64,000 bases of DNA from Clostridium sp. Marseille-Q2269. Its GTDB lineage: Bacteria > Bacillota > Clostridia > Clostridiales > Clostridiaceae. Position 1 is the stretch's first letter. Every line of letters begins with the position of its first letter. Shown here piece by piece: positions 2,456 through 42,545 of this stretch. Below the pieces are notes generated by a model. The model made no database searches. It saw only the letters and a list, made by a program, of their open reading frames with translations, and had not been told where the DNA came from. The translations under genes and the position numbers were made by a program. The stretch is taken from assembly GCF_943736985.1 (NCBI RefSeq), contig NZ_CALSFS010000001.1, forward strand, positions 310,001-374,000. The letters are read 5' to 3'.

Positions 2456-2541
2456 ATAAAATCACCTTAATATTTATTGCTTCATGTTATACTATGTTTA
2501 TTAAATACTTATTATACTTTTAGATTAAATTCAAATAAAAA

Positions 2542-2600: not shown

Positions 2601-2628
2601 ACATATAACATATCAGAAAATTATATTT

Positions 2629-3189: not shown

Positions 3190-3216
3190 TTTATATACTT
3201 CCCTTCCCCCATAAAA

Positions 3217-3759
3217 CTAATCCTCTTTAACTAAATATAATAAATTATCATCCACATTATAAAATAATGGTGCTATTAATATTTTAGGATATTTTGTTCT
3301 TAGTCTTTTTGTTTCACCTAATAAAAAACTAATTTCATTTTCTATTTCAAACATAGGAGCAAAACTCATAAAATGCTCCTCTGCTTGTGCCTTATCCCAT
3401 CCAGCATTATTAACTAATCCCTTAATAAATTTTTCTTTTTTACTGATCAAATTTACCATTCCACAATTATTATGACCTATTAATGCTAAAGTCTTAACTC
3501 CTCCAACTGCCACAGTATATGATATCTTAAATTCACTATATCTTAAATTTCCTCCACCAGTTCTAAGTATATAAGCAAAATTATTTGGTATTTTAAGCTG
3601 TTTTCTGTTATCCATGCACATTCCTACTAATAATTCTGCACTATTATATTCATCATGTTTACAATCTAAATTATGATATCTAAAAAGTTTTTCAATAGCT
3701 GTATTTTTATAAATAGGTAATATATCTTCAACATTTTCTACTTTCATTAATCTATCCAT
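3217..3759 (-). CDS. beta-class carbonic anhydrase-like protein
   Basis: 180-aa member of the beta carbonic anhydrase family (interconversion of CO2 and bicarbonate, zinc enzyme). The zinc ligands and catalytic dyad are all present: Cys48 in CMDNR with Asp50/Arg52, then His96 and Cys99 in GHNNCGM. The product is short compared with E. coli Can but typical for the small clostridial forms. The start is uncertain. ATG 3759 has no Shine-Dalgarno sequence, while ATG 3747 has a weak GGAT. A better ribosome site lies upstream in front of a 13-codon mini-reading frame whose TAA overlaps ATG 3747 as TAATG, suggesting translational coupling. It is followed closely by the anchored protein at 2629-3189. 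Confidence 0.8.
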   Translation of the reverse strand: MDRLMKVENVEDILPIYKNTAIEKLFRYHNLDCKHDEYNSAELLVGMCMDNRKQLKIPNNFAYILRTGGGNLRYSEFKISYTVAVGGVKTLALIGHNNCGMVNLISKKEKFIKGLVNNAGWDKAQAEEHFMSFAPMFEIENEISFLLGETKRLRTKYPKILIAPLFYNVDDNLLYLVKED

Positions 3760-3788
3760 ATTTTATTTATGGGACAATATAATCCCAT
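3747..3788 (-). other. possible 13-codon leader peptide before the carbonic anhydrase gene
   Basis: ATG at 3788 is preceded by GGTGGTGAAGTTTT, a better ribosome site than any in front of the downstream gene. The frame encodes MGLYCPINKIWID and stops at 3747-3749, sharing bases with an in-frame ATG of the carbonic anhydrase gene. Seen directly; that it is translated is inference. Confidence 0.35.
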
Positions 3789-3799
3789 AAAACTTCACC

Positions 3800-4101
3800 A
3801 CCTTTATCTATAACAATAATATTTTTATTTCATGACTATCTATGTTAATATCTTTAAAATCATTAAGCATAGTACTTTGATCCTAGTAAGTAATTGCATT
3901 ATAAGATAGTTAATTTTCTAAGTCATCTTTGTTAAATGGAAATTTTAAGAAATTATTTTAAAAAACTTATACTATAGACTAAGAATTTTTTGATGTCATT
4001 ACTAAAAAATTATAAGTTCGATCTTAAGTAGCACCTTATATTTAGCTATTGAAATTAAGTAATTTTATATAATAAATCATTATTCAAATGTTTTATAAAG
4101 A
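3800..4101. other. intergenic, no gene seen
   Basis: About 300 bases of AT-rich DNA between two minus-strand genes. Presumably it holds the promoter of the carbonic anhydrase operon. No reading frame with a ribosome site, strong hairpin or recognisable RNA was found. Confidence 0.5.
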
Positions 4102-5244
4102 TTATTTTTCATAATACTTTTTAGTAGGTTCTAATCCTATATATTGATAATAATAACATTTCAATCTTCCATTATATAATTTCCTATTCCTATTAGATTT
4201 CTCACCAAATATCTTTTCAAAACCTTCATAAGAAGTTAATACAAAGCAAGACCAGTCTTCCAATTCTGAGTATACTTCCCCTAGATTTTTATAAAGCTTT
4301 TCTACTTCTTTTAGAGTATTTAATCTTTCACCATAAGGTGGATTAGTTATCATAACTCCATATTTCTTTTTTGATTTAAATTCTTCCATAGGCATCTTTT
4401 GAAAAGCTATATAATCAGAAACTCCTGCTTTTTGTGCGTTATCTCTAGCGGTTTTTAATATTCTCCCATTTATATCTGAAGCTAATATTCTAAAGTCATT
4501 ATTGTTTATACAGTTTTTAGCATGTCGTCTTACTTCTTCCCACATATTTACAGGTATTATATCCCAATCTTCTGCTGCAAATCTCCTATTTAAACCTGGT
4601 GCTATATTTTTACCTATTAAGGCCGCTTCTATAGCAATGGTACCAGAACCACACATAGGATCTGAAAGTATTCTTGAAGGTTCCCACTTACTTAAAAGTA
4701 CCAAAGCTGCTGCTAGCGTTTCCTTAAGAGGTGCTTCTCCTGCATTTTCTCTATATCCTCTTTTATGAAGTCCTGCCCCTGAAGTATCCAAGGTTAATGT
4801 TACTATATCTTTTAAAATAGCTACCTCTATTTTATATTCTGGTCCATCTTCACTAAACCAATCCTTAACATATTCTCTTTTCATGGCTTCTATTACAGCT
4901 TTTTTTACTATAGACTGACAATCTGGAACACTATGTAGTGTAGATTTAATAGATTTTCCTGTTACATGCATAAAGCCATCTTCTGAAATATATTCTCCCC
5001 AAGGTATTCTCTTAGTCCCTTGGAAAAGTTCCTCAAAACTTTCTGCCTTAAATTCTGCCATTTTTATTAAAACTCTATCTGCAGTCCTAAGCCACATATT
5101 GCATGTAACTATATCTCTTTCATCACCTATAAAAGCAACTTTACCATTTTCTATTTTTAAATCATCATATCCTAATTCTTTTAATTCATCCGCTACTACT
5201 TTTTCTAGTCCGAAGGTTGCTGTAGCAATTAGTGTATATTCCAT
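4102..5244 (-). CDS. THUMP-domain rRNA (guanine-N2) methyltransferase, RlmL/YpsC type
   Basis: 380 aa. An N-terminal RNA-binding ferredoxin-like/THUMP region (about 1-160) precedes a class I methyltransferase domain. The S-adenosylmethionine site is seen in DPMCGSGTIAIEAA and the catalytic motif IV as NPPYGERL, typical of N2-guanine methylases of the RlmL/RlmK N-terminal half and of B. subtilis YpsC. The C-terminal RlmK half of the E. coli fusion is absent, as usual in Firmicutes. Start ATG with AGGAGATG upstream. It is a stand-alone gene, 48 nt ahead of the exonuclease III gene on the same strand. Confidence 0.88.
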   Translation of the reverse strand: MEYTLIATATFGLEKVVADELKELGYDDLKIENGKVAFIGDERDIVTCNMWLRTADRVLIKMAEFKAESFEELFQGTKRIPWGEYISEDGFMHVTGKSIKSTLHSVPDCQSIVKKAVIEAMKREYVKDWFSEDGPEYKIEVAILKDIVTLTLDTSGAGLHKRGYRENAGEAPLKETLAAALVLLSKWEPSRILSDPMCGSGTIAIEAALIGKNIAPGLNRRFAAEDWDIIPVNMWEEVRRHAKNCINNNDFRILASDINGRILKTARDNAQKAGVSDYIAFQKMPMEEFKSKKKYGVMITNPPYGERLNTLKEVEKLYKNLGEVYSELEDWSCFVLTSYEGFEKIFGEKSNRNRKLYNGRLKCYYYQYIGLEPTKKYYEK

Positions 5245-5292
5245 TTTTTCATCTCCTACTTTAACATAATTTATATTTAATATATTAAATAT

Positions 5293-6054
5293 TTATTTTA
5301 TCTCTAACATTACAGGACAATGATCTGAACCATAAACTTCATTTAATATTTCTGTATTTTCTACTTTATCCAATAAATTATTTGAAACAAAATGGTAATC
5401 AATTCTCCATCCTGCATTTCTCTCTCTTGCTTTAAATCTGTAACTCCACCAAGAATATTTAATCTTGTCTGGATTTATGTTTCTAAAGGTATCTGTATAT
5501 CCTCTTTCTATTATTTTATCTATCCATTCTCTCTCTATTTTTAAAAATCCTGAAGTTTTTTCATTGGCTTTAGGATTTTTAAGATCTATTTCATTATGAG
5601 CAGTATTATAATCTCCACATATAACCAATTTTTTATCTTCTTTAACCAATTGATCACAATAATCAAATAAAGCTTCATAAAAATCTAATTTATATTGAAG
5701 TCTTTCTTCATCCCTTTGGCCATTAGGGAAGTATATATTTAGAAGAGTAAATTTTTTAAATTCTGTTATAAGTATTCTGCCTTCTGAATCAAATTTTTCC
5801 ACTCCTATACCGCGTTTTATAGAAATAGGTTCTTCCCTTGTATATGTAGCTACTCCACTATACCCTTTTTTTTCTGCAAAACTAAAATAAGAGTGATATC
5901 CTTCTATGTTTTTTATATTATCTTCTAATTGATTCTCCTGCAATTTTGTTTCTTGAATACATAATATATCAGGATCTTCTTCTTCTATCCACTGAAAGAA
6001 GTTCTTTTTTGCTACTGCTCTTAACCCATTAACATTCCAAGAATAAATTCTCAT
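5293..6054 (-). CDS. xth: exodeoxyribonuclease III / AP endonuclease
   Basis: 253-aa exonuclease III family protein that cuts DNA 5' of abasic sites and trims 3' ends in base-excision repair. The signature blocks are the N-terminal SWNVNGLRA, the metal-binding Glu in CIQETKLQ, the GDYNTAH block with the active-site Asp and Asn, and the C-terminal GSDHCPV containing the catalytic His. The ATG at 6054 is chosen because AAAGGTGG is 5 nt upstream; a longer frame opening at a TTG further upstream would run through that ribosome site. Full-length for the family. Often named exoA in Firmicutes. Confidence 0.93.
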   Translation of the reverse strand: MRIYSWNVNGLRAVAKKNFFQWIEEEDPDILCIQETKLQENQLEDNIKNIEGYHSYFSFAEKKGYSGVATYTREEPISIKRGIGVEKFDSEGRILITEFKKFTLLNIYFPNGQRDEERLQYKLDFYEALFDYCDQLVKEDKKLVICGDYNTAHNEIDLKNPKANEKTSGFLKIEREWIDKIIERGYTDTFRNINPDKIKYSWWSYRFKARERNAGWRIDYHFVSNNLLDKVENTEILNEVYGSDHCPVMLEIK

Positions 6055-6072
6055 AATACCACCTTTTCTCAA

Positions 6073-6395
6073 CTTGTTTTAACCAATATGATTTAATAAC
6101 TATTATTAAATTATACCAAATTTTTTTAAAAAACACACGTTAAACAATGAAATTGTAATTTTTTTAAAAGCTTTACTGAAGTATAACATAAAAAATTTAT
6201 TAAAATAACGTATATAATCCAATATTTCACTAAATCAAGATTAATAAATAGCTCATAAATCTATCTAAAATTAAATATTGAATTTTAATAAGTAGAATAA
6301 GGCAAGATGTTATTAATAACTAAAATCATCTTGCCTTATTATAGATTAATTTTATAGTTTGTAAAACTTATTATTATTATAAAAATATTAAAACC
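6073..6395. other. intergenic with one hairpin
   Basis: AT-rich spacer. The only structure is the hairpin at 6296-6340 listed separately. No small gene with a ribosome site was seen. The promoter of the exonuclease gene is expected here but was not identified. Confidence 0.5.
6296..6340 (-). terminator. probable terminator (14-bp stem, poor T-run)
   Basis: A perfect 14-bp inverted repeat AATAAGGCAAGATG with a 17-nt loop lies 56 nt past the stop of the membrane-protein gene at 6396. No clear T-tract follows on either strand, so termination is probable rather than certain. Confidence 0.5.
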
Positions 6396-6704
6396 TTATA
6401 TGTGTATTTTATATACATTAGTCTCATCTTTATGTGTAAAATTAATAAAATTCAGCATAATTCCTGATATAATTCCAGTTAATATATAAATAATAATATC
6501 TGAAAATACTCCAACCACACATATTATAAATGATAATATAAGCATACAAGCTATATAAAATACAGGTTTCCAATATGAGTTAAATATACTAAGACTAGAA
6601 TCTAATTTTTTTATGAAATTGTATTTTTTAGCTATCTTATTAAATATAATATAGCTAAATAAACAAGATATCAACATTGGCAAAAAATCTACAAACCTAA
6701 TCAT
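6396..6704 (-). CDS. small integral membrane protein, unknown function
   Basis: 102 aa with three predicted hydrophobic segments (about residues 5-22, 46-68 and 70-90) separated by short basic loops. No soluble domain and no recognisable family. The ribosome site AAGGAGATG lies 5 nt before the ATG at 6704, and a hairpin follows the stop, so the gene is probably real. It is isolated from both neighbours by more than 200 nt and appears monocistronic. Confidence 0.6.
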   Translation of the reverse strand: MIRFVDFLPMLISCLFSYIIFNKIAKKYNFIKKLDSSLSIFNSYWKPVFYIACMLILSFIICVVGVFSDIIIYILTGIISGIMLNFINFTHKDETNVYKIHI

Positions 6705-6887
6705 ATTTTCATCTCCTTATTATTCAATTTTTAAATATAGCAAATCTGTTTCGCTTATACTTATCCTGTATATTACATTTTATTGAAATATATTACAATT
6801 ATAACAATATCTCTTACAGAATTCAACTTAATTTAAAACTTACATTGCGTATTCAACACAAATATAATTACTAAATATTCAAAAAAT

Positions 6888-6921
6888 AAAAATACTAATG
6901 CAAAATTACATTAGTATTTTT
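6888..6921 (-). terminator. terminator of the pyrR-uraA operon
   Basis: A perfect 13-bp stem AAAAATACTAATG with an 8-nt loop carries T-rich DNA on both sides. It lies about 30 nt beyond the uraA stop, so it ends that operon. Confidence 0.8.
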
Positions 6922-6950
6922 CATTATACATATAATATATTTAATGTTTT

Positions 6951-8291
6951 CTAAACTACATTTTTTTCTATAGGTTTAACAGATTCTTCATTTAAATTCT
7001 CTTCATTATCGGCTTCTTCTGTCCTACTTTCTTTTGGAAGTATTAAATTTAATATTATTCCAACTAGTGTTGCTAGTGCAACTCCTGCTACTTCTACATC
7101 AGAGCCTGCCAATTTAAATTTTACTGCAGCTCCTCCTATTCCTAATACTATTATTACAGAAGATATTATCAAGTTTCTCTTTTTACTGAAATCTATTTTA
7201 TCTTCTACAAATACTCTAAATCCTGAAGAAGCTATTATTCCAAATAATAATATGCTAACCCCACCCATAACTGGCATTGGTATTGTAGCTATTAATGTAG
7301 CTACAGGGCCTATAAATGAAAGTATAATGGCTATTATAGCAGCCCCTACTATTACCCACACACTGTATACTTTTGTTATAGCCATAACGCCTATATTTTC
7401 TCCATAGGTTGTATTTGGAGGGCCACCTATAAATCCTGCTAATAAAGTAGCTATACCATCTCCTAGTATAGATCTATGAAGTCCAGGATCCTTTGTAAAA
7501 TCTTTCCCCACTACGTTATTAGTTACATAAACATGTCCTATATGTTCTGCTAGTGTTACAAAAGCTACTGGTGCCATTAATACCATAGCATTTATATTGA
7601 ATTGTGGTTTCATAAATGGTGGAAGTTGAAATAAAGGTGCACTTGCTATTTTAGCTAAAGTTTCTTGAGATATAACCCCTAAAGCTAATGCTGAAATATA
7701 GCCGCATATCATGGCTATAAGAATTGGTATTACTCCTAAAAATCCTTTAAAATACATTGTCCCTAGTATTCCTATTCCCAAAGTTATCATTGAAACTGTA
7801 ATCCATGCCCACCTTGGTACATTTTGCATTGACTCTACTGTAAAGCTGGAGTTAAGGCCTGCCCAGTTTACTGCTACTGCTGCCAACCCTAATCCTATTA
7901 CTATTACAACAGAACCAACAACTATAGGAGGCAACACTTTATTTAACCAATCTGTACCTGTAAAACTTATTATGCCCGCTACTAATATATAAATTAATCC
8001 TGCAGCTATTATTCCAGATAGCATAGCATTAGGTCCATAAGCCGCTGATGCCACTGTCATAGGTCCTATAAATGCAAAAGATGATCCTATATATGCTGGT
8101 AATTTTGCTTTGGTACAAAGAACATAAAGAAGAGTTCCTATACCACTTCCAAACAATGCAATGGAAGGACTCATGCCTGTAAGCATAGGTACTAATATAG
8201 TGGCTCCAACCATTGCAAACAAATGTTGAAAACTTAAAGGTATAGTTTTTAAGATAGGTAATTTTTCATTTACGTCTATATATTTTTTCAT
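6951..8291 (-). CDS. uraA: uracil permease
   Basis: 446-aa nucleobase:cation symporter-2 (NAT/NCS2) family transporter that imports uracil across the cytoplasmic membrane. About 12-14 hydrophobic segments are visible. The family blocks PLSFQHLFAMVGATILVP at the N-terminus and the substrate-region segments VALAEHIGH-like (TLAEHIGHVYVTNN) and GGPPNTTYGENIGVMA are present; the latter is typical of uracil permeases. The C-terminus is a charged tail. Start ATG with GGGGG 7 nt upstream. It lies 43 nt after pyrR on the same strand and shares its attenuator, so it should be repressed by uridine nucleotides. Confidence 0.93.
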   Translation of the reverse strand: MKKYIDVNEKLPILKTIPLSFQHLFAMVGATILVPMLTGMSPSIALFGSGIGTLLYVLCTKAKLPAYIGSSFAFIGPMTVASAAYGPNAMLSGIIAAGLIYILVAGIISFTGTDWLNKVLPPIVVGSVVIVIGLGLAAVAVNWAGLNSSFTVESMQNVPRWAWITVSMITLGIGILGTMYFKGFLGVIPILIAMICGYISALALGVISQETLAKIASAPLFQLPPFMKPQFNINAMVLMAPVAFVTLAEHIGHVYVTNNVVGKDFTKDPGLHRSILGDGIATLLAGFIGGPPNTTYGENIGVMAITKVYSVWVIVGAAIIAIILSFIGPVATLIATIPMPVMGGVSILLFGIIASSGFRVFVEDKIDFSKKRNLIISSVIIVLGIGGAAVKFKLAGSDVEVAGVALATLVGIILNLILPKESRTEEADNEENLNEESVKPIEKNVV

Positions 8292-8334
8292 ATTGTTTCC
8301 CCCTTTTAGTCTCTCTGGACTATTTTAAAAGACG

Positions 8335-8907
<573 letters not shown>

Positions 8908-8990
8908 TTAAGTTAGTTTTTTATCCCTCTCAATATTAATTAAATTAATTAATAAGCTTTAAATTTATTATACAAAATGTCATACTTGAA

Positions 8991-9023
8991 TAAAAAAATG
9001 CCCTTACTCTGCAAGTAAAGGCA
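8991..9023 (-). terminator. attenuator terminator in the pyrR leader
   Basis: On the minus strand an 11-12 bp stem (ATGCCTTTACT pairing with AGTAAGGGCAT) is followed by seven T. It sits 120 nt before the pyrR start and just after the PyrR-binding element, the expected place for the regulated terminator. Confidence 0.85.
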
Positions 9024-9050
9024 TAATAATTCTATATAAATTTATTCATA

Positions 9051-9084
9051 GCCTTATGACCTCACAGGATCATTTTAAAGGTAA
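9051..9084 (-). promoter_or_regulatory. PyrR-binding anti-antiterminator element
   Basis: The minus-strand leader contains ATCCTGTGAGGTCA flanked by complementary CCTT...AAGG arms. This matches the conserved PyrR-binding hairpin core (UCC-N-G-N-GAGGU) of Gram-positive pyr leaders. Binding should stop antiterminator formation and allow the terminator at 8991-9023 to form. Confidence 0.85.
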
Positions 9085-9176
9085 AACATTTTCTATCATT
9101 ATACAACATCTATCATAAATTTTCAATAGATTTAATTTTTATTTTGTTTTCACTAATAAACATATTTTTATAATTT

Positions 9177-9326
9177 CTTCTTTTGTTCTTGTGATCAAAA
9201 ATTACTTCTTTTGTGTATTATATATTCCTTTGTTACAAATTTATTTTATCTTCTGTTCTTAATTTTTTTTCTTTTGTTCTTGTTAAAATTTTTCTTCTGT
9301 ACATATTTTCTTTTATCTTTTGTAAC
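9177..9326. repeat. array of seven CTTYTGT motifs at about two-helical-turn spacing
   Basis: Copies of CTTYTGT, often followed by TCTTGT (minus strand ACARAAG, up to ACAAGAACAAAAGAAG), occur with their G at 9185, 9213, 9232, 9255, 9276, 9299 and 9322. The steps are 28, 19, 23, 21, 23 and 23 bases. The array fills the gap between rluD and the pyrR leader. No function is known for it. It may be upstream regulatory DNA, part of an untranslated RNA, or a chance product of pyrimidine-rich composition. Confidence 0.5.
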
Positions 9327-9358
9327 ATTTATAGACATATATTATCACTATTTTATAA

Positions 9359-10276
9359 TTAAATCAATTCATTTCTCAAAATTTTGACTATTTTTTTAAA
9401 ATACTCTGGTACTTCACTTTGAAATTCTACATATTTTCCTGTACTAGGATGAACAAATCCTAATAATCTAGCATGTAACATCTGCCCTTTTAAATTAAAT
9501 CTTTGCTTCTTATATCCATAAACTGGGTCTCCAACTAAAGGATGCTTTATATGAGTCATATGGACTCTTATCTGATGTGTTCTTCCTGTTTCAAGCCTGC
9601 ATTCTACCAAAGTGTGACTTTTAAATCTTTCTATAACTTTATAATGTGTTACGGCATGCCTTCCATTTTTCACTACTGCCATCTTTATTCTATCTACAGG
9701 GTGTCTACCTATAGGCGCCTCTATAATACCCTGTTCATTCTTTATTGTGCCCTCTACCAATGCCATATATACTCTAGAAATAGAATGTTCTTTAAATTGA
9801 GCTGCTAAATTATTGTGAGATTTGTCATTTTTCGCCACTACTAATACGCCTGAAGTGTCCTTATCTATTCTATGTACAATTCCAGGTCTTGCTACTCCAT
9901 TTATACCTGATAAATCTGTGCAGTGCTTTAAAAGAGCATTAACTAAAGTTCCCGAATATAGCCCTGGTGCAGGATGAACTACCATTTCCTGAGGTTTATT
10001 TACAACTATTATGTCTTTATCTTCATATAATATATCTACTTCAATATCTTCTGGTTCTATCTCAAGCAACTTAGGTTCTGGTATATTCACTTCAATATTA
10101 TCTCCAAGTTTTAATTTGTAATTTCTTTTTTTTTCTTTATTGTTTATTAATACATTACCATTATTTATTATTTCCTGAAAATAAGATCTAGATTTATCTT
10201 CAAAAATCTGAGATAAATATAAATCTAATCTTACATTATCAAATTCCTTTTCTACTGTTAAAAATATCTTTTCCAT
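9359..10276 (-). CDS. rluD: 23S rRNA pseudouridine synthase, RluD type
   Basis: 305 aa. An N-terminal S4 RNA-binding domain (about 1-75, VRLDLYLSQIF...GNVLINNKEKKRNYKLKLGD) precedes the RluA-family catalytic domain with the active-site Asp in HRIDKDTSG. RluD-type enzymes make pseudouridines in helix 69 of 23S rRNA. The ATG at 10276 is 3 nt past the lspA stop, with GGAAGAG overlapping the lspA end, so translation is probably coupled. The lspA-rluD pair in front of pyrR is the usual Firmicute arrangement. Confidence 0.9.
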   Translation of the reverse strand: MEKIFLTVEKEFDNVRLDLYLSQIFEDKSRSYFQEIINNGNVLINNKEKKRNYKLKLGDNIEVNIPEPKLLEIEPEDIEVDILYEDKDIIVVNKPQEMVVHPAPGLYSGTLVNALLKHCTDLSGINGVARPGIVHRIDKDTSGVLVVAKNDKSHNNLAAQFKEHSISRVYMALVEGTIKNEQGIIEAPIGRHPVDRIKMAVVKNGRHAVTHYKVIERFKSHTLVECRLETGRTHQIRVHMTHIKHPLVGDPVYGYKKQRFNLKGQMLHARLLGFVHPSTGKYVEFQSEVPEYFKKIVKILRNELI

Positions 10277-31647: not shown

Positions 31648-31720
31648 TTAAAACAAACATTATAATTAATTGAGATTTGTATATTAAGATAAAAAATTTC
31701 AAATGAAATATTTAAAATAA

Positions 31721-31815
31721 GGGGCTGTCGCACTAAGAATAAATTCTACAATATATTGTGTTAACTTTAAACTGTAAAACAATATATTGTGCTTAAATTC
31801 TTTAATACGACAGCC
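31721..31815. repeat. palindromic MITE-like element, copy 1
   Basis: 95 bp bounded by GGCTGTCG and CGACAGCC, with an internal imperfect palindrome containing two ACAATATATTGT cores. A second copy at 42433-42545 has the same ends and core, so the unit is dispersed. It lies between the convergent ychF and grdA genes and may also act as a two-way terminator. The ends resemble transposon inverted repeats, but no parent element is in the window. Confidence 0.7.
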
Positions 31816-31829
31816 TGTATACTCATATT

Positions 31830-32306
31830 CTAATCAGTGAATTTACAAAATTCTTCTCTTATATCTGTCATTTCTTCTATAATATCATCTATATCCAAAA
31901 CCATTTCCATCATACCTATTTCTTCTTCATAAACTTCTTCATCTACTTCTTCTTTAAATTCTGGCTCTACAGCATGATAAACTCTTAGTCCTAACTGGAC
32001 ATTGGACAATGGACCTGCAAAAGTTGGATCTCCATTAGTAACAGTCTCTGCAGCAAGACCTGCTGCTTCTCCTTCTGCTGCACCTAAAAGTACTAATATA
32101 TTTTCAGCACCATATTTTTCTGTTAATGTTTTTACTCTTTTTTGATTTTCCAAATCCATTGCTCCGGCGGCAGTTCAAACGAAACATTCTGTGGATGAGA
32201 AAACCACTTCTGCTTCTGTTCCTTCTATGCATTTTTCTATAGCTGGGCCTGGTATTCCATCCCTATCTCCAATTATTATTAATTTTTTTCCTTCTAATAA
32301 ACTCAT
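31830..32306 (-). CDS. grdA: glycine/betaine reductase selenoprotein A
   Basis: 158-aa selenoprotein A, the small shared component that carries the carboxymethyl selenoether from protein B to protein C during reductive amino-acid fermentation. It starts at ATG 32306 behind AGGAGG ([17 protein letters not shown]) and contains an in-frame TGA at 32175-32177 read as selenocysteine 44 in the motif CFVU followed by TAAG. The frame is open on both sides of the TGA, the family length is exactly matched, and the motif is the known GrdA active site, so this is not a frameshift. It lies 40 nt after the BCCT transporter gene and is last in the locus. The copy is probably dedicated to betaine reduction. 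Confidence 0.95.
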
Positions 32307-32346
32307 TAATATTCCTCCTGTTGTTTATTTATACCTAAAGTATATT

Positions 32347-33837
32347 CTAACTTTTTTCCTCTTTTAATGCTTTCATTAAAGACACACATGCAAAAATCAT
32401 TATAAATATGAACGGAAATGCCGCTGCCACAGATATAGTCTGTAAGCTCTTTAATCCTCCACTTATTAAAAGAACTGTAGCTAACAATGCTTGTATTACT
32501 CCCCATAAAATCTTCTTTAGATTTGATGGATTTAAATCTCCCTCCGAAGTAAACATAGCAAGTACAAACGTAGCTGAGTTTGCTGATGTAATAAAAAATG
32601 TACATAAAAGAATTATAGTTATTATTGAAATAATGCTAGCTAACGGATAATGTTTAACTACTAAAAATAGAGCTGTATCAGAAACTTTGGCCATTTCTTT
32701 AAGCGCCGTTAGTGTCAAAGTATTCTTTAGATTAATTCCTAATGTTCCAAAGGATGCAAACCATATAAATGAAGCAATTGATGGAGCTATCATAACTCCA
32801 AGTACAAATTCTTTAATAGTTCTTCCTTTTGAGATTCTAGCTATGAATGTGCCAACAAATGGAGCCCATGCAATCCACCATGCCCAATAAAATACTCTCC
32901 AACTATTAATCCAAGCATTATCACCAAAAGCTTCTATTTTTAAACTATCCTTAATAAAATCTCCTATATAAAAACCTAATCCATTAGTTAATGAGTTAAA
33001 TATTTTTAAAGTAGGTCCTATAAGTATGATTAAAATAAGAAGCAAGAATGCCAAACCTAAATTAATATCAGACAGTAATTTTATTCCTTTTTCGATACCA
33101 CTCACTGCAGTCCAAATAAATATTATTGTAATAACTACTATTATGATTAATTGAACTAATGTAGTCTTAGGTATATTAAATAAAAAATTCATTCCGCTAT
33201 TTATTTGAAGAGTACCAAGACCTAAAGAAGTGGCAACTCCTGCTACTGTGGCAAATACTGCAAATCCATCTATTAATTTGCCAATAGCACCTTTAGCTCG
33301 TTCTTCACCTATAAGAGGTATAAATATACTACTTATAAGCCCTGCTTTATTTTTTCTAAATTGGAAATATGCAAGAGCCAATCCAATTATGCTATAACTT
33401 GCCCAAGGATGAAATCCCCAATGAACAAATGAAGTTTTGATTGCAAAGTTGGCTGCTTCTGTAGTTCCTGGCTCTAATCCAGGTGGATTTGCGAAATGTG
33501 ATAGTGGTTCTGCAACACCCCAGAACACTAATCCTATTCCCATTCCTGATCCAAATAGCATTCCAAACCATGAAGTCGTTTTATATTCTGGCTTAGAATC
33601 ATCTGAACCTAATTTTATTTTTCCATATTTACTGAATGCTAAAATTAAAGCAAATACTACAAAGAAGAACATAGAAATTAAATACAACCAACCAAACTTA
33701 TCTGATAAAAAAGTATATACTACATTACTGACATTTGTAAAATTTGTTGGAGAAATCAATCCCCATATAACTATTAAGAATACTACCAATAGAGATACTA
33801 CAAACACTTCATTGTTATATATCTTTTTTTTCACCAT
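32347..33837 (-). CDS. BCCT-family betaine/carnitine/choline transporter
   Basis: 496 aa with 12 membrane segments. The family TM8 signature is clear in FYWAWWIAWAPFVGTFIARI, with its tryptophan box, and ISKGRTIKEFV follows. It takes up quaternary amines such as glycine betaine using an ion gradient. Placement between grdH and grdA makes betaine the likely substrate and nutrition, rather than osmoprotection, the likely purpose. No long regulatory C-terminal tail of the BetP kind is seen, which fits a non-osmotic role. Start ATG with AAGGGG upstream. Confidence 0.88.
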   Translation of the reverse strand: MVKKKIYNNEVFVVSLLVVFLIVIWGLISPTNFTNVSNVVYTFLSDKFGWLYLISMFFFVVFALILAFSKYGKIKLGSDDSKPEYKTTSWFGMLFGSGMGIGLVFWGVAEPLSHFANPPGLEPGTTEAANFAIKTSFVHWGFHPWASYSIIGLALAYFQFRKNKAGLISSIFIPLIGEERAKGAIGKLIDGFAVFATVAGVATSLGLGTLQINSGMNFLFNIPKTTLVQLIIIVVITIIFIWTAVSGIEKGIKLLSDINLGLAFLLLILIILIGPTLKIFNSLTNGLGFYIGDFIKDSLKIEAFGDNAWINSWRVFYWAWWIAWAPFVGTFIARISKGRTIKEFVLGVMIAPSIASFIWFASFGTLGINLKNTLTLTALKEMAKVSDTALFLVVKHYPLASIISIITIILLCTFFITSANSATFVLAMFTSEGDLNPSNLKKILWGVIQALLATVLLISGGLKSLQTISVAAAFPFIFIMIFACVSLMKALKEEKS

Positions 33838-33858
33838 AAAAACAGCCCCTTATTTATA

Positions 33859-33923
33859 ATATAGTATTAGATCTTCATATTTTTTAAAACTCATTAAAAA
33901 TATACTATGATCTAACACTATAT
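33859..33923 (-). promoter_or_regulatory. intercistronic hairpin between grdH and the transporter gene
   Basis: 15-bp arms ATATAGTATTAGATC (33859-33873) and 33909-33923 with one mismatch, and a 35-nt AT-rich loop. It may set the transporter level relative to grdH by partial termination or RNA protection. Confidence 0.45.
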
Positions 33924-33943
33924 TTTATAATAAATGATAAGCC

Positions 33944-35257
33944 CTAAATTTTAACGTCAAATACAGTTTGATCTTCAATATCCTTTCCTAAGGAATCTAT
34001 AGCTACACCTACTCTGTGATATCTTAATTTCCATTGCTGTTCTTTTGTATCTTTTGGATCTCCAAGGGGATATGGTATAGAAATTGTTGGTACCATTCTA
34101 TTTGCCCCAACAGTTTTTGCAACGGGTATTAAATTACACATTTGAACAACAGTAATTCCTGCCCTTTCTATCTCTTTTACCATAGTTGCTCCGCAACGAG
34201 TACAAGTTCCTCATGTAGAAGTTAATATAACACCATCAACATGATCTTCTTTTAAGCATTCTACCATTTCTCGTGCCATTCTAGCTGCTTCTGCTTCAGT
34301 TGTACCTGTTCCAACTGTTGAATAGAAATACTTATGAAGTTTGCCTATTTTCCCCTCCCTTTCATAAGCTTTTAAAGCATCTAATGGTACTATAACGTTT
34401 GGATCTTTATCAGCTGCTGCTGGGTCAAAACCTGCATGTATAGTCTTATAAACACCGCCTTCTAATGTATCTATTTCTGATACATCATATCTTCCCCATC
34501 TTGTAGCAGAAGCAGACTGTATTCTATCTGGATTATCTACTGGAACTATTCCTCCAGATGTTACACACGCTATATTAGCTTTACTTAAGTCCTTTATAGC
34601 ATCTGCAATTTTTACTCTATCTAGTTTAGGGATTGGTAACTCTGTTTCAAATTCCTCATTATTTAACTTTTTAATCATCATATCTACAACTCTATTTGCT
34701 GCTGGCTCTAAAGAATCAAGCCAAACTTGATGTCTTATACCTCTTGTAAAATAACCTTCTTCATCTGCTGACAATAATTTTTCTCCTGCTAGAATCTTAT
34801 CACCAAATTTAGCCATTGGTTTTATGTCTTTTCTCATTCTTCCTGCATTGTTTCCACCTTTAAATATATAAACATGTTTTTTAAACATATCTACTCCAGG
34901 ATTTTCTTCATGCATAGATGTTATGACTGGTACATTAAACTTTTCTTTTACGGCTTCACATATAACCCCACAAGCTACACCATATCTGCCTGCTTGGAAT
35001 GCAGGACCTGCAAAGAATATGTCAAATTCTATATTTTCTAAAAATCCTAATATTTTTTCTAAGGCTTCCTCTTTTTTCGATCCCATAAAATTATCTCCAC
35101 ATATTATTGTGTGAGTAATTTCAGCATTCATAAGCTTTTTATCTAACTCTGTAGCCGGTCCAACTAATCCTTCCCTTATTTCTGGAGGAAAATCCGCTTT
35201 ATCTTCTCCACCTATTTGTCCAAAGAATTGATTTAAATATAATATTGCCTTCTTCAT
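33944..35257 (-). CDS. grdH: betaine reductase protein B, selenocysteine subunit
   Basis: 437-aa selenoprotein of the GrdB/GrdF/GrdH family, the large subunit of substrate-specific protein B that activates the amine substrate. An in-frame TGA at 34211-34213 is read as selenocysteine 349 within TST-U-GTCTRCGATM, the UxxCxxC centre of this family; the frame continues for 88 residues. Conserved N-terminal FFGQIGGED and GDNFMGS blocks are present. Assignment to betaine (GrdH) rather than glycine or sarcosine rests on the adjacent BCCT transporter and the divergent regulator, and needs phylogeny to confirm. Start ATG about 12 nt from AAGGAGG. Confidence 0.88.
34185..34197 (-). promoter_or_regulatory. 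possible bacterial SECIS hairpin in grdH
   Basis: The mRNA forms GTTGC-GGA-GCAAC, a 5-bp stem with a GGA loop, beginning 13 nt after the grdH UGA. This is the position and G-containing loop expected of a bacterial SECIS element that recruits SelB. The grdA UGA is followed by a less clear hairpin with a similar CGGAGCA core. Confidence 0.45.
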
Positions 35258-35274
35258 AACAACTTTACACCTCC

Positions 35275-36603
35275 TTAAAACTCTTTCATTGTTTTAACTG
35301 ACCATCCTGATACTTGGTCCCCACAAAACATAGCATTATTTTCCATAATTATTGACCCATCCGCTCTAACAGACGGTCCTAAAATTTCATCATTTGCCCA
35401 TCCACCAGAAAGACCATCTCTTGCTAAAGATTCAAGTTCTCCTATAACTGTTTCCATAGGTGGAAGTTCTATAAGTTCAGAAACATTTCCACAGGATACA
35501 ATAGCATTAGCTTTTTCATCTAAAGTAACTAATGGTTGGGATTGACCATCTCTACCTGTACATTCATTAGTTATTCCTACTGTTTTAACTCCAGCATCTT
35601 CTAACGCTACAATACATTCTATAAAATCGGCATCTGGATTTCCATACCCTTCTTCTGCAACTATTGCCCCATCAGCTCCAAGTGATTTAGCCATTTGTGC
35701 TACAAATATTGCTGCACGCTTTTTTTGCTCTAAAGCAACATTTAAATTTGACATTATAATCCCTAAAAAATTAATTGATTTTCCATGTTCTTTATAAAGC
35801 TTCTTTATAGTCAGATTATTCTGAAAATCATAAGTAGACCATTTAGAAGAGCATGGCATGAAGCTTCCTGATACTACTGCACCATCTAAAACTTCATTTG
35901 GATGCATAAATGTTGGTACCATATGATTTGCATCCCATCCATAAACTAAATCATTATATCCCATTTCCTCCATTTGGGATTGCGGTTGCATTACAAAAAC
36001 CACTGATGGCAAATTAGAAACTTCTTTTGATCTTTTTGTAATTGCTTCCAATTCATATTCTTCAATCTCTGCGGGTGTTAAATCCTTTACACACTGAGCT
36101 ATATACTCTGCTAATTTATGCCCTGCCAACCTCAATGCTCTGTTTTTCTTTTGTTGCTCATGTTTTTCAAAATCTTCGTCAGTATCTGCCACCAGTACTA
36201 TATTTTTAAGTTTCGAAAAATAAGTATATTTGGCGCCTTCTCCACACATATCTATAAGTCCATCCTGAAATCCACCCCAATGTTTTCCAACAACTAAAAC
36301 GCTACATTCCTTTAATGCATGAGTTATACCATATCCAGTTTTAGCCACTTCTCCTATGAATCCTGGGAAAATTGTTTTGCCACCTTCTACTTTTGCTCTG
36401 GGTTCAATAGCTTCTTTAACAGGAACAAGTCTAACTTTATCCCCGGGTCTTACAATGAAAATATCTGCATCTGTTATATGTTCATCTTCTTTAACAAATT
36501 CCAAAGCTTCCTCCTTATTAATTGTTAGAACTCCATCTTTGTAACATAGTGCTGTTCCAAATTGAATATCATCCACCGGGAAATTTCCAATTTGCAATTT
36601 CAT
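35275..36603 (-). CDS. grdI: betaine reductase protein B, proprotein subunit
   Basis: 442-aa homologue of the GrdE/GrdG/GrdI proproteins, which are cleaved at an internal cysteine to give two subunits, the C-terminal one bearing a carbonyl (pyruvoyl-type) group that forms a Schiff base with the amine substrate. The likely cleavage residue is Cys251 in SGSFMPCSSKW, about the position known for GrdE. Betaine has no free amine, so the carbonyl's role here is unclear, as noted for betaine reductases. Start ATG with GGGG 8 nt upstream. It is first in the locus and 17 nt ahead of grdH. Confidence 0.88.
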   Translation of the reverse strand: MKLQIGNFPVDDIQFGTALCYKDGVLTINKEEALEFVKEDEHITDADIFIVRPGDKVRLVPVKEAIEPRAKVEGGKTIFPGFIGEVAKTGYGITHALKECSVLVVGKHWGGFQDGLIDMCGEGAKYTYFSKLKNIVLVADTDEDFEKHEQQKKNRALRLAGHKLAEYIAQCVKDLTPAEIEEYELEAITKRSKEVSNLPSVVFVMQPQSQMEEMGYNDLVYGWDANHMVPTFMHPNEVLDGAVVSGSFMPCSSKWSTYDFQNNLTIKKLYKEHGKSINFLGIIMSNLNVALEQKKRAAIFVAQMAKSLGADGAIVAEEGYGNPDADFIECIVALEDAGVKTVGITNECTGRDGQSQPLVTLDEKANAIVSCGNVSELIELPPMETVIGELESLARDGLSGGWANDEILGPSVRADGSIIMENNAMFCGDQVSGWSVKTMKEF

Positions 36604-36700
36604 TATTTACACCCCTTTTCCATTTTTTAAAATTAATACAATGAATAAGCATTTTTTCTTTATACGTTTACAATAATCTGTCTTGTTCTAATATTACCAC

Positions 36701-36737
36701 AAAATAAACGTGTTTGTAATATAAACACGTTTATTTT
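36701..36737. promoter_or_regulatory. palindromic operator between grdI and the TetR gene
   Basis: Perfect 15-bp arms AAAATAAACGTGTTT around a 7-bp AT-rich centre (36716-36722). It lies about 100 bp upstream of grdI in a divergent promoter region, the classic place for a TetR-family autoregulator to bind. Binding of this particular regulator is inference. Confidence 0.7.
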
Positions 36738-36821
36738 TGTTATTAAAATAACAAATGAACTTAATAACTTTTGATTATAAATAATCTAAAATGCATATAG
36801 TAATTTTTTCCTTATAATTGC

Positions 36822-36851
36822 TTTACTTTTTATTAACCTCTAAGTTATAAT
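36822..36851 (+). promoter_or_regulatory. probable promoter of the TetR-type regulator gene
   Basis: A perfect TATAAT (36846-36851) with TTTACT 18 bases upstream (4 of 6 consensus positions). Transcription would start near 36858, about 34 nt before the ATG. Confidence 0.45.
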
Positions 36852-36891
36852 ACTTATAGCTTTTAATAATATAAAAAGAATGGTGATTAAT

Positions 36892-37548
36892 ATGGATAAA
36901 AAAATTATTCAGAAAAGAAGAATGATGAAATATTTTATAGATGCTACTCAACAAATAATAGAAAATGAATCCTTTGATTTAGTAACTGCAAGAAAAGTTT
37001 CTAATCTGGCTGGCTTTAATAGTGCTACTATTTATAATTATTTTAAAAACTTAGATGAATTACTATATTTTAGTTGTATAAAATATCTAGCAGATTATTC
37101 AAAAGATAAATATGATATAGTGAATACAAAAAATCATAAAAATACATTTGAATATTACATAAATATATGGAAATGTTTTTGTTATCATTCTTATAGAAAT
37201 CCTAAGATTTATTTTCATTTATTTTTTACTAACTATACTTTATACCAAAGTTCTATTGAAGAATACTTTGAAATGATATTTGACGATATAGATGATACTG
37301 GAAAAAATTTGTTACCATCATTATTAAAAGAAAATATTTACCATAAAAATCTATCCTTACTAAATAGCTTTGTAAGAAATAATATTGTATCTGAAAAAAA
37401 TTTAAATGCTTTAAACGAAATGATAATATGTATATATCAAAGTATGCTATATAACATACTTAATAATTTGGTAGATTATTCTATAGATACAGCCACTGAA
37501 AAAACTTTAAAATACATAAATCAAACTATACTATCCTATACTCTTTAA
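36892..37548 (+). CDS. TetR-family transcriptional regulator
   Basis: About 218 aa. The N-terminal helix-turn-helix is recognisable (TARKVSNLAGFNSATIYNYF, then KNLDELLYFSC), followed by a Tyr/Asn-rich helical ligand domain of low conservation. ATG 36892 is preferred since GGTGA is 6 nt upstream; an earlier in-frame ATG at 36880 is within that region. Divergent from grdI with a palindrome between them, so it probably represses or senses for the betaine reductase locus. The inducer is unknown; betaine or a breakdown product is a reasonable guess. Confidence 0.8.
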   Translation: MDKKIIQKRRMMKYFIDATQQIIENESFDLVTARKVSNLAGFNSATIYNYFKNLDELLYFSCIKYLADYSKDKYDIVNTKNHKNTFEYYINIWKCFCYHSYRNPKIYFHLFFTNYTLYQSSIEEYFEMIFDDIDDTGKNLLPSLLKENIYHKNLSLLNSFVRNNIVSEKNLNALNEMIICIYQSMLYNILNNLVDYSIDTATEKTLKYINQTILSYTL

Positions 37549-39334: not shown

Positions 39335-39709
39335 ATAACCCCTTCTAATCTTCTTATTTATAAATTTATCTATAAACTATTAATTATAATAATGATAATA
39401 AATATTATTATAGCATAGGCTTTATTTAAATAAATTATATCACGTTCATTTTACTATGAAATATTAATAAAATATTATTTACATTGATAAATCATCTATT
39501 CACGCTTTGCATAATTTTCAAAATTTACACATAATATATTAAATTTTGAAAATTAAAGAAATGTTTATAAAATTAAAGAATAATTTATAATTTTAAACTT
39601 ATTGTAAATAAATAGTAAATTTTCAAGTTTGTTCTTGAACACTTTCAAATATATAATTAATATTGTAAGTTTTAACTATCAACAAATTATATTGGGGGTT
39701 AAATTATTT
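39335..39709. other. upstream region of the M4 protease gene
   Basis: 375 bases without a gene. It contains the inverted repeat at 39513-39554 and several short AATTAAAGAA-type repeats just after it. The last 20 bases before the ribosome site are shared with the upstream region of the truncated paralogue. The M28 gene promoter must also be here. Confidence 0.5.
39513..39554. repeat. 14-bp perfect inverted repeat upstream of the M4 protease
   Basis: Arms AATTTTCAAAATTT and its complement around a 14-nt AT spacer, about 155 bp before the protease start. It could be an operator for the secreted-protease promoter or the end of the divergent M28 leader. It is not present before the truncated copy. 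Confidence 0.45.
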
Positions 39710-41437
39710 ATGAAAAGTAAAAAATTATTAGCTACAGTATTAAGTGCTGTAATCACTTTTTCCGCAGTTTCTGCAGTTTCAGCTGCGCCTGTAGGAAAAG
39801 AAAGTAAAAACGAACCTAAAACTACAACAATCTTTTGGGAGAAAAGCAAACAAAATACTAGGAAACCTACTACTGATGTAACTCAAAAGAAATTTAGAAG
39901 TTCAGAAGAAATAAACAAATTCTTTAAAGAAAACATCTCTAAATTTGGTTTAAAAAAAGGTGATCTTAAAAATACTAAATCTGTAAAAGATGCAAAAGGC
40001 AAGACTCACTATCATACAATTTATCAAGTAGAAGGGATACCTGTTTACTATGGAAGAATTGTTTTCACAACTGACCAAGATGCTACTATGAATTCTATAA
40101 ATGGTAGAATCGACACAGCTTTTGAAAATGAAAATTGGAAAAATAAGATTAATATTTCAAAAGATGATGCTATAGCAAAGGCTAAAAATAATATCAAGGA
40201 TGAAGAAATATCAAAATCAGAAGGAAAATTATATCTATATAATTTTGAAGGAACTCCTTATGTAGTTTACCTAGTAGATTTAGTTACTGATAGCGGTAAT
40301 TGGAAAGTTTTTGTTAATGCTGAAAATGGTTCTATAGTTAATAAATTTAACAATACTCCTACTTTAATTGATGATAATGATCAAAAATTACCCAATGCTA
40401 AAGAAGTTAAAGCTGAAGCTGAAAAAGCTAATAAAACAAATAATATAATCGATGTTCAAGGTCAATCTGTTAAAGGAAAAGGTAAAACTTCATTAGACGG
40501 AATAGTTGATATTGATCTAACTTATAAAGACGGAAAATACTATTTAAAAGATAGTAATAAAAATGTGTTCACTTATGATATAAACAATAGCTGGTTACCT
40601 CTATACAATGTATCTAAATCATATATATTACAATATTCAAACCTTGTAGAAAATAACAATAATAATTTTATAGATGATAAACATGTTTCTGCTGTAGATG
40701 CTCATGTAAACTTAGGCAAAACTTATGATTATTATAAATCTAAATTAAATAGAAACAGTATAGATAACAAAGGTATGAATGTAGAAGGATTTGTTCATGT
40801 TGGTCAAAGCTACAATAATGCTTTTTGGAGAGATGATCTTGGCTCTATGTTCTTTGGAGATGGTGATGGAAAATTATTTTCTCCTCTATCAAAATCTTTA
40901 GATGTTGTAGGTCATGAAGTAAGCCATGGTGTAACTAGTAAAGAATCTGCTCTTATTTATGAAGATGAATCTGGTGCTTTAAATGAAGCATTCTCAGATA
41001 TTATGGGAGTAGCTATTGATGGTAAAAACTTTGAAATAGGTGAAGAGTGCTTTACACCTAAAGTTGCAGGAGATACAATGAGAGACATGAAAGATCCATC
41101 TAGAGGAGATCAACCTGCCCACATGAAAGATTTTGTATACACAAATGAAGATCATGGTGGTGTTCATACAAATTCAGGCATAATAAACCACGCAGCTTAT
41201 TTAATAGCCGATGGATTAGAAAAAGCAGGTGCAAAAGATAGCAAAGACATTATGGGAAAAATATTCTATGATGCTAATTGCTATCAATGGGACGAAACAA
41301 CTAATTTTGCTAAATGTAGAAATGATGTAGTTAAAGTTACTAAAAATCTTTATGGTGAAAACAATAACTATGTTAAAATTGTAGAAAATGCTTTCGACAA
41401 AGTTGGAATATCTGCTACACCTCAATTACCATTATAA
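39710..41437 (+). CDS. secreted thermolysin-like neutral metalloprotease (M4)
   Basis: 575-aa preproenzyme. Signal peptide about 1-26 (MKSKKLLATVLSAVITF, ending SAVSAAPVG), FTP inhibitor domain (about 35-105), PepSY domain (about 120-205), then the catalytic domain. The zinc site HEVSH has His402, Glu403 and His406, with the third ligand Glu426 in NEAFSDIMG, exactly 24 residues after the first His as in thermolysin. The catalytic His is probably in the later GGVHTNSGI region. ATG 39710 is chosen as it opens the signal peptide and is preceded by TTGGGGG. It resembles the tandem npr genes of proteolytic clostridia and feeds amino acids to fermentation. Confidence 0.94.
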   Translation: MKSKKLLATVLSAVITFSAVSAVSAAPVGKESKNEPKTTTIFWEKSKQNTRKPTTDVTQKKFRSSEEINKFFKENISKFGLKKGDLKNTKSVKDAKGKTHYHTIYQVEGIPVYYGRIVFTTDQDATMNSINGRIDTAFENENWKNKINISKDDAIAKAKNNIKDEEISKSEGKLYLYNFEGTPYVVYLVDLVTDSGNWKVFVNAENGSIVNKFNNTPTLIDDNDQKLPNAKEVKAEAEKANKTNNIIDVQGQSVKGKGKTSLDGIVDIDLTYKDGKYYLKDSNKNVFTYDINNSWLPLYNVSKSYILQYSNLVENNNNNFIDDKHVSAVDAHVNLGKTYDYYKSKLNRNSIDNKGMNVEGFVHVGQSYNNAFWRDDLGSMFFGDGDGKLFSPLSKSLDVVGHEVSHGVTSKESALIYEDESGALNEAFSDIMGVAIDGKNFEIGEECFTPKVAGDTMRDMKDPSRGDQPAHMKDFVYTNEDHGGVHTNSGIINHAAYLIADGLEKAGAKDSKDIMGKIFYDANCYQWDETTNFAKCRNDVVKVTKNLYGENNNYVKIVENAFDKVGISATPQLPL

Positions 41438-41505
41438 TAAAAATATTATTAAACCCATAGATATATTTATGTAACGTTATTTATAAATAATATTAAAAAT
41501 TAAAA

Positions 41506-41553
41506 TAAATAAGATGATTTCTTAATATTTAGAAATCATCTTATTTATTTGTA
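41506..41553 (+). terminator. terminator of the M4 protease gene
   Basis: A perfect 17-bp stem TAAATAAGATGATTTCT with an 8-nt loop, T-rich on the plus side, 70 nt past the stop. Confidence 0.85.
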
Positions 41554-41746
41554 ATAATTATAATGTTTTTACTTCATAATAATTATAGTTTATACATTTC
41601 ATAATGATTATTTTTCATATAAATATTTAATAGTTTAACTGATTGTGCTAGTTAAAGTCAACTTATAGAATCATATTTATCCTTATATATAACTAACATT
41701 ATGAATTAACAAATATAATTAAATAATATTGGGGGTTAAGATATTT

Positions 41747-42427
41747 ATGAAAAGGAAAAAATTATTAGCCACAGTTTTAAGTTCTATAATCACTTTCTCA
41801 ACAATTTCCACAGCTTATGGAGCCCCTATAGGGAAAGAAAGTAAAAGTGAACCTAAAACTACAACTATATTTTGGGAAAAAAGCAAACAAAAAAACAAAA
41901 TAGCCACTACAGATATAACTCAAAAGAAATTTAATAACTTTGAAGAAATAAATAAATTTTTCAAATATAATATCTCTAAATTTGGCTTGGAAAAAGGTTC
42001 TCTTAAAAGTACTAAAATTTTAAAAGATAATAAAGGTAAAACCTACTACCATACTATTTATCAGGTTGAAGGAATACCTGTGTACTATGGAAGAATTGTT
42101 TTTACAACTGATAAAGACTTTTCAATGGATTCTATAACTGGTAGAGTTGATACTTCTTTTGAAAATGGTAATTGGAAAAATAAGATTAAGCTATCAAAAA
42201 ATGATTCTATAGAAAAAGCTAAAAATACCATAAAATATAAACATTCATCTGAACCCAAATCAAATTTATATTTATATAACTTTAATGGAACTCCTTATAT
42301 AGTTTATCTCATAGATTTATGTACAGATGAAGGAGATTGGAAAGTATTTGTTAATGCAGAAAATGGTTCCATAATAAATAAATTCAATAATACACCTACT
42401 TTAATTGGCACCAATAAGCAGATTTAA
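41747..42427 (+). pseudogene. truncated M4 protease paralogue: signal peptide and propeptide only
   Basis: 226 aa, closely matching the first part of the full-length neighbour: signal peptide, FTP domain (TTTIFWEKSK, then TTDITQKKFNN) and PepSY domain (TYYHTIYQVEGIPVYYGRI, WKVFVNAENGSIINKFNNTPTLI). The similarity stops a few residues later, and the frame ends just 6 bp before the palindromic element at 42433. No catalytic domain remains. The ribosome site and start are intact, so a secreted 200-aa propeptide could still be made. It is best called a pseudogene fragment, but it may act in trans as a foldase or inhibitor of the neighbouring protease. Confidence 0.8.
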
Positions 42428-42432
42428 AGAAT

Positions 42433-42545
42433 GGGCTGTGGCACTAAAAATAAATCCTACAATATATTGTGTTACCTTTGTGTAAAGAGGATTCATATAA
42501 CTTCAGACAATATATTGTACTTAAATTCTTTAATACCGCAGTCCC
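42433..42545. repeat. palindromic MITE-like element, copy 2
   Basis: 113 bp starting GGGCTGTGGCACTA and ending CCGCAGTCCC, sharing with copy 1 the block CTACAATATATTGTGTTA near one end and the ACAATATATTGT plus TTAAATTCTTTAATAC block near the other. The centre differs and is longer. It sits directly after the break in the truncated protease gene, suggesting that insertion or later deletion caused the truncation. Confidence 0.7.

Follow-up and report, generated by a model that had tools for sequence, protein, structure and literature searches.

A 64,000-nucleotide stretch of the genome of Clostridium sp. Marseille-Q2269 (NCBI RefSeq assembly GCF_943736985.1, contig NZ_CALSFS010000001.1, positions 310,001 to 374,000 of the forward strand; hereafter the window, with a G+C content of 27%) contains a compact locus for the reduction of glycine betaine, in which grdI, grdH, a gene for a BCCT-family transporter and grdA follow one another and a gene for a TetR-family regulator, grdR, points away from grdI. 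Enzyme, transporter and gene order are known, and the operon is an ordinary one of a published type; what is new is a testable regulator-operator pair, with clade-specific variants and a regulon, which comparison with related loci makes a well-supported prediction. Taken as a whole, the picture of a betaine-specific Stickland operon that GrdR represses through a DNA dyad, and that a ligand relieves, is quite likely to be correct. It is supported by the computed gene identities, the operator, the pairing of operator with regulator type, and the recurrence of the operator at trx-grdA units.

The genes for the regulator and GrdI are separated by a gap of 276 bp, within which lies a perfect 27-bp dyad, AAACGTGTTTGTAATATAAACACGTTT. 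Among relatives (80 grdI loci, or 81 upstream regions when the window is counted), the corresponding consensus is AAWCRYGWTT-N7-AAWCRYGWTT, consisting of two near-palindromic 10-bp boxes and a 7-bp spacer. The window dyad matches this consensus with 0 mismatches; when up to 3 are allowed it is still the sole match among the 64 kb, as compared to 0.55 expected. Upstream of grdI, the operator is present at no more than 3 mismatches over 20 positions in 43 of the 81 regions, as compared to 0.86 expected from dinucleotide shuffles, and perfect copies occur in 16 regions, as compared to 0.00 expected. A spacer of 7 bp is found in 34 regions at up to 2 mismatches, and any other spacer between 0 and 20 bp in at most 5. 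The boxes recur at a fixed 17-bp step, with three or four in a row in the related loci L001 and L061. In two loci where tetR has been displaced (L048 and L011) the operator stays beside it, and in L020 the operator lies before grdA-grdI; what the operator marks is thus the promoter region common to tetR and the betaine unit.

Regulators linked to grdI form two groups, whose recognition helices typically read YNSATLYNYF and FHNSTIYLYF and which are here called YN and HNST. The 16 HNST sequences, which we take to be mostly from Lachnospiraceae, form one clade at support 1.0, and the YN clade has a support of 0.78. Among the 70 loci with at least 1.7 kb of upstream DNA, and in counts uncorrected for kinship, the operator described above is present in 30 of the 34 loci in which a YN-type TetR is encoded no more than 1.7 kb upstream versus 4 of the 36 without one; in two of these four, L027 and L060, a YN-type TetR is encoded farther off. 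Loci with an HNST-type TetR (helix HNSTIYLYF) carry another palindrome, TAAGCRYGCTTA, which is found at up to 1 mismatch in 14 of 15 such loci with sufficient flanking DNA versus none of the 55 others, and the first operator occurs in this group only in L055, at 3 mismatches. Box spacing also differs, being 41 bp in 9 of the 16 HNST loci (three of which are close to identical) versus 17 bp in the YN group. The palindromic core that the boxes have in common points to one dimer per box. Both operators are found in G019, a metagenome-assembled genome, where an HNST-type TetR gene is divergent from one grdI with its own palindrome (L168), and the other grdI (L039), whose upstream flank ends at the contig end, has a perfect operator of the first type and a YN-type TetR gene behind the BCCT gene.

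The operator also recurs at sites away from grdI. A scan of 19 genomes (~65 Mb; L005 lay outside it) at up to 1 mismatch recovered 27 sites, consisting of 19 upstream of grdI in 17 genomes, 5 before trx-grdA units and 3 elsewhere, whereas the reversed pattern gave 9 sites in the same genomes. The 27 do not include the grdI site of genome G018 or the grdI sites of G005 (C. ljungdahlii), all of which carry 2 mismatches. The five trx-grdA sites lie at three places in three genomes (L100, L102 and the L104/L061 array), directly before trxA-grdA or trxB-trxA-grdA, and in two genomes, G007 and G016, the trxA-grdA unit is on a different contig from grdI. At positions 3014-3074 of L104, in G018, trxB-trxA-grdA is preceded by four operator boxes spaced exactly 17 bp apart. 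Assignment by position, sequence and six fetched regions placed no site of the 27 in a glycine reductase cluster. Because the reversed control yields 9 sites, the three sites elsewhere are treated as chance: one with 0 mismatches before a pair of open reading frames (L099), one inside an open reading frame (L101), and, probably chance as well, a 1-mismatch copy at position 2242 of L103 in G016, which lies between a gene for a 678-aa protein and genes judged by eye to resemble a multi-subunit sodium/proton antiporter. Betaine uptake by BCCT carriers is sodium-linked.

GrdR itself exceeds the TetR_N threshold only barely, and it is 20-50% identical to 59 TetR proteins of grdI loci; the alignment left out L015 (start not located), L036b1, L018b1, L071, L075 and L080, and the tree left out L036b1, L071 and L080. 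An AlphaFold2 model has a mean pLDDT (per-residue confidence) of 91, and its best Foldseek matches are TetR-family regulators (E ~1e-4). Among the closest solved folds are those of FadR proteins, which bind acyl-CoA, in weak matches at a similar E value and a root-mean-square deviation of ~8. Six aromatic residues of the ligand domain (W97, F100, F115, F116, Y129 and Y130) show little or no variation across the family, and an aromatic cage for betaine was considered and rejected: most of these aromatics are retained by a GrdR relative at a sarcosine locus, L171, and so are no proof of a betaine pocket, and W97 is absent from L039, a grdI locus. At L171 (positions 4600-9745, in G019) the gene for the GrdR relative directly precedes a sarcosine-type grdG (878 bits, cut-off 780) and a grdF-like gene, behind which lies a gene for a sodium:neurotransmitter symporter-family transporter, which suggests that the GrdR-type family acts at further protein B units as well. 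Another relative, at L170 (positions 1334-7325, also in G019), is encoded amid genes for BKACE, 3-hydroxyacyl-CoA dehydrogenase, a short-chain fatty acid transporter and butyryl-CoA:acetate CoA-transferase.

How such a regulator would act is suggested by the placement of promoters. For grdI, the highest-scoring consensus -35/-10 pairs have a -35 element that begins at +8, -10 or +24/25 relative to the operator start, and every one of these placements overlaps the operator; the best reaches a mean score of 7.23, as compared to 6.88 for the largest of 100 shuffles, and on the tetR strand the score only equals the largest shuffle. The -10 element of the candidate grdI promoter in the window lies inside the operator. 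This overlap fits repression by blocking of RNA polymerase. The chemistry of betaine reductase, from protein B through GrdA to protein C, is established for the family. In the proposed mechanism the BCCT carrier would bring in glycine betaine, protein B (GrdI and the selenoprotein GrdH) would split the C-N bond to give trimethylamine and a carboxymethyl group that is handed to selenoprotein A (GrdA), and protein C (GrdCD), from genes elsewhere, would convert the carboxymethyl group to acetyl phosphate. We infer that GrdR binds the dyad, represses rather than activates and answers to betaine, and that the four genes are transcribed as one unit. It would occupy the two palindromic boxes over the grdI promoter, repress the operon and probably tetR itself too, and release the DNA on binding its ligand, for which betaine, the most likely candidate, is the simplest guess.

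Several observations weigh against this reading. The consensus was derived from the same loci in which it was later counted, and the training loci are related, such that shuffles and Fisher values overstate independence. Because of the former, a hold-out test was run on nine grdI loci from seven genomes: the operator was present at up to 2 mismatches in 8 of the 9, including the three distant loci L194, L195 and L196 (2 mismatches each), although in six of the nine, long stretches of DNA match a training locus at 86-97% identity. The one miss, L182, has no TetR match within the available DNA, and L191, which is identical to training locus L057, was left out. Four of the 34 loci with a nearby YN-type TetR have no operator at 3 mismatches (L003, L047, L048 and L077), although in L048 it is present farther upstream, beside the displaced tetR. 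The switch between HNST and YN is a single evolutionary event. GrdR of the window deviates at positions that are nearly invariant in the family (S147 and K156) and is unusual at position 133, and some GrdR paralogues (L167 and L169) have no operator nearby. Finally, the relatives at the sarcosine reductase of L171 and the BKACE unit of L170 indicate that the family is not confined to betaine, which leaves the ligand uncertain.

These last relatives bear on the rival that survives best, in which GrdR does bind the dyad, but as an activator or as a sensor of selenium or redox state, of sarcosine or another amine, or of an acyl-CoA. Such a role would suit the L171 regulator at a sarcosine reductase, the L170 regulator in a CoA-linked unit, and the presence of FadR among the closest folds. 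It is nonetheless rather unlikely, as the strongest GrdR family members in 20 genomes are mostly found at grdI, the targets other than grdI are trx-grdA units, the top-scoring promoters for grdI coincide in part with the operator, and the FadR matches are weak. Much less probable is control of another kind, by sigma-54 with an enhancer protein or by a regulator of the CodY or CcpA type, with the TetR gene a mere neighbour. A TetR match is missing from 18 of the 80 loci, and the partial text available for Sporomusa sphaeroides describes a 58-kb betaine cluster with SigL (sigma-54) promoters (PMC12456013); against this, the operator pairs with regulator type, and the same source reports a separate Sporomusa grdACDHI cluster as SigA-dependent. 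Of these systems, the pattern search covered sigma-54, control by which is rejected: the -24/-12 pattern precedes grdI in just 1 of the 62 loci that have a TetR gene and in 0 of the 18 that have none. A role of the dyad as a terminator of transcription or as a structural hairpin is very improbable. The window copy does resemble a terminator stem when scored on the + strand, but both divergent genes have it on their upstream side, and in relatives that carry the operator the boxes are near-palindromic and follow one another every 17 bp, in places as a series of three or four.

Repression through the operator therefore stands as the preferred explanation: operator recurrence, the trx-grdA sites and the clade-specific palindromes together indicate that GrdR very probably represses, and coordinates, the betaine-specific components. 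Evenly balanced between true and false is a wider proposition, in which Clostridia would widely use GrdR as a dedicated sensor of betaine to set their trimethylamine output, with two sister clades of differing operators and geometry (AAWCRYGWTT at 17 bp, and TAAGCRYGCTTA often at 41 bp) that do not crosstalk in G019, and with trxA-grdA units on other contigs recruited into the betaine regulon. Betaine reduction is a direct bacterial path to trimethylamine, and bears on trimethylamine N-oxide in the gut and on methane formation in sediments. If GrdR is the switch, one short DNA motif would predict which organisms control the betaine route in this way and which genes belong to it, and GrdR would be a candidate betaine biosensor.

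The features of the locus are collected in Table 1. The sequence-only reading of this DNA had described grdI, grdH, a BCCT transporter and grdA in a row, with selenoproteins, a TetR gene divergent from grdI, and only the substrate-specific part of the reductase plus selenoprotein A encoded locally, and this description is borne out by coordinates and family scores, by the in-frame TGA codons of grdH (Sec349) and grdA (Sec44), and by a search of the 64-kb window with queries from L061, in which no relative of GrdC, GrdD, TrxA or TrxB was detected at E 1e-3. Gaps of 17 bp between grdI and grdH, 106 bp between grdH and the transporter gene, and 40 bp between the transporter gene and grdA are compatible with, without proving, a single transcription unit.

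Table 1. Features of the betaine reductase locus, in positions of the window (Sec, selenocysteine; SECIS, selenocysteine insertion sequence)
Feature	Position	Strand	Description and evidence
grdI	35275-36603	-	442 aa; betaine reductase protein B subunit alpha; PF09338 642 bits (cut-off 22), tree, motif
grdH	33944-35257	-	437 aa; betaine reductase protein B selenoprotein, Sec349; NF040795 855.4 bits (cut-off 775)
SECIS of grdH, bacterial type	34173-34210	-	Rfam RF01990 SECIS_4, 53.2 bits (gathering 38), E 1.2e-10
BCCT-family glycine betaine transporter	32347-33837	-	496 aa; NF047988 684.9 bits (cut-off 650); PF02028 641 bits
grdA	31830-32306	-	158 aa; selenoprotein A, Sec44; NF040748 271.8 bits (cut-off 130)
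grdR, TetR-family regulator divergent from grdI	36880-37548	+	222 aa; PF00440 TetR_N 24.2 bits (cut-off 24)
Predicted GrdR operator	36706-36732	no strand	AAACGTGTTT-N7-AAACACGTTT; two 10-bp boxes, 17-bp step
Promoter-like site for grdI	36718-36746	-	TTAATA-17-TATATT, consensus match 9/12; not functional evidence alone
Long hairpin just past grdA	31720-31815	-	fold of 31700-31830: -38.7 kcal/mol, z -7.5

The specificity of protein B for betaine is supported by agreement of three lines of sequence evidence: the GrdH cut-off, the GrdI clade, and the missing Asn-Cys site. GrdH exceeds the betaine cut-off and falls short of those for sarcosine (566 versus 800) and glycine (512 versus 602). Because no betaine-specific alpha-subunit family model matched GrdI, a tree was built of 26 alpha subunits from 12 genomes plus GrdI of the window, which clusters with 13 grdI-type proteins, split at support 1.0 from 13 of the GrdE/GrdG type (two of which, L149 and L151, are without family-model confirmation). 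The protein B subunits thus group apart from glycine and sarcosine reductases, as the earlier reading had anticipated. The processing site reads Gly-Ser-Phe in 14 of 14 GrdI proteins versus Gly-Asn-Cys in 13 of 13 of the GrdE/GrdG type; GrdI of the window reads SGSFMPCSSK, without the Asn-Cys pyruvoyl site, and the SFMP motif is present in all 80 GrdI proteins of the fetched loci. Asn-Cys is the cleavage site that gives the pyruvoyl group of GrdE, and its loss from GrdI makes sense because a quaternary ammonium substrate is unable to form a Schiff base with that group. Among the genomes listed, the best match to GrdI is from C. carboxidivorans at 84%, and a search of 206 genomes from the G006 family likewise gave 84% at best. 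A published account already states that GrdI is no proprotein (PMC10838667).

Each selenoprotein gene contains one in-frame TGA. In grdH this codon is number 349 of 437, and the SECIS recognized by Rfam lies directly 3' of it. The grdA gene starts with an ATG behind AGGAGG and has its TGA at codon 44 of 158 in the context CFVUTAAG, in which the CxxU motif appears as CFVU; a plain list of open reading frames gives only a 109-aa piece 3' of the TGA. Both codons sit at known selenocysteine places, as the available part of a report on C. sticklandii gives position 352 (of 440) for GrdH and 44 (of 158) for GrdA (PMC3091704). No SECIS was found for grdA with Rfam at E 0.5, and single-strand folds of 55 nt at both UGAs are not unusually stable, though Rfam recognizes the grdH element. 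The hairpin past grdA is a 96-bp near-palindrome, GGCTGTCGCACTAA ... TTAATACGACAGCC, and is probably either the operon end or a small palindromic repeat element. A similar single half, with 1 mismatch, occurs at 42434-42447 after a truncated protease gene. The preceding region (39629-42427) holds a gene for a thermolysin-type (M4) protease followed by a 232-aa open reading frame with propeptide domains (FTP and PepSY) only, in which no catalytic domain was found and which is probably a decayed tandem copy.

Among the 80 relatives, the fetched DNA contains a TetR match in 62, a BCCT gene in 72 and both in 57. Seven of the betaine clusters (L062, L063, L065, L067-L069 and L076) show, within the DNA fetched, neither a GrdR-type TetR match nor a sigma-54 pattern, and no operator when up to 2 mismatches are allowed. 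Eleven TetR-bearing loci also carry trxB, trxA, grdA, grdC and grdD, and others are as short as that of the window or shorter. Gene order in L050 (Faecalicatena faecalis) is identical to that of the window, and L020 holds this set of genes too, but opens with grdA and has the TetR gene at its opposite end. GrdC scored over the cut-off in 18 of 20 genomes with no grdC at the fetched grdI locus, some of these loci being cut by contig ends, with a partial match in one genome and none in another; the supply of protein C from another locus is thus normal.

Comparison with described clusters places the locus among known types. The compact layout had been read as unusual, yet a short grdRIH cluster without trxAB and grdCD is already published for C. 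sporogenes DSM 795, in which grdR stands beside grdI and grdH as in the window and the glycine reductase and sel genes are located elsewhere; in the portion of that paper available, grdA and BCCT are not named in the cluster, and no grdR operator or mechanism is given (PMC4517662). Similarly, the grdHI loci of Candidatus Betaina sedimentti and of reference genomes have opuD (BCCT) and tetR as neighbours, with tetR named in a figure legend, but the reconstruction includes trxA/trxB, and the regulator is not analysed in the text seen (PMC6716910). The regulator is named grdR in the available parts of papers on C. sporogenes (PMC4517662) and C. ljungdahlii (PMC13241827), and a TetR protein of C. 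autoethanogenum, CAETHG_0459, has another motif, with betaine unmentioned in the text searched (PMC6873888). A full-text literature search, confined to the top matches of the longer listings and with subscription papers and theses beyond its reach, found no published operator or regulon for grdR, and the earlier remark that TetR control of such a locus is not well described holds within that literature.

At the level of protein families, GrdI and GrdH belong to the same two-part selenoprotein B families as protein B of glycine and sarcosine reductases (GrdE/GrdB and GrdG/GrdF), from which GrdI differs by Ser-Phe at the processing site where the 13 GrdE/GrdG-type proteins compared have Asn-Cys. 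GrdR resembles BetI, a choline-responsive TetR repressor, in its family and in its position beside genes for a quaternary ammonium compound. BetI is the best NCBIfam match of GrdR, yet the score of 24.1 is far under the cut-off of 201.3, which rules out identity, and the predicted target is betaine reduction rather than choline oxidation. For the operator, the closest parallel drawn is with QacR-type TetR repressors, whose operator is bound by two dimers: the tandem palindromic boxes of the predicted GrdR site could likewise hold two dimers, set apart by a spacing of 17 bp here and of 41 bp in the nine HNST-clade loci of 16.

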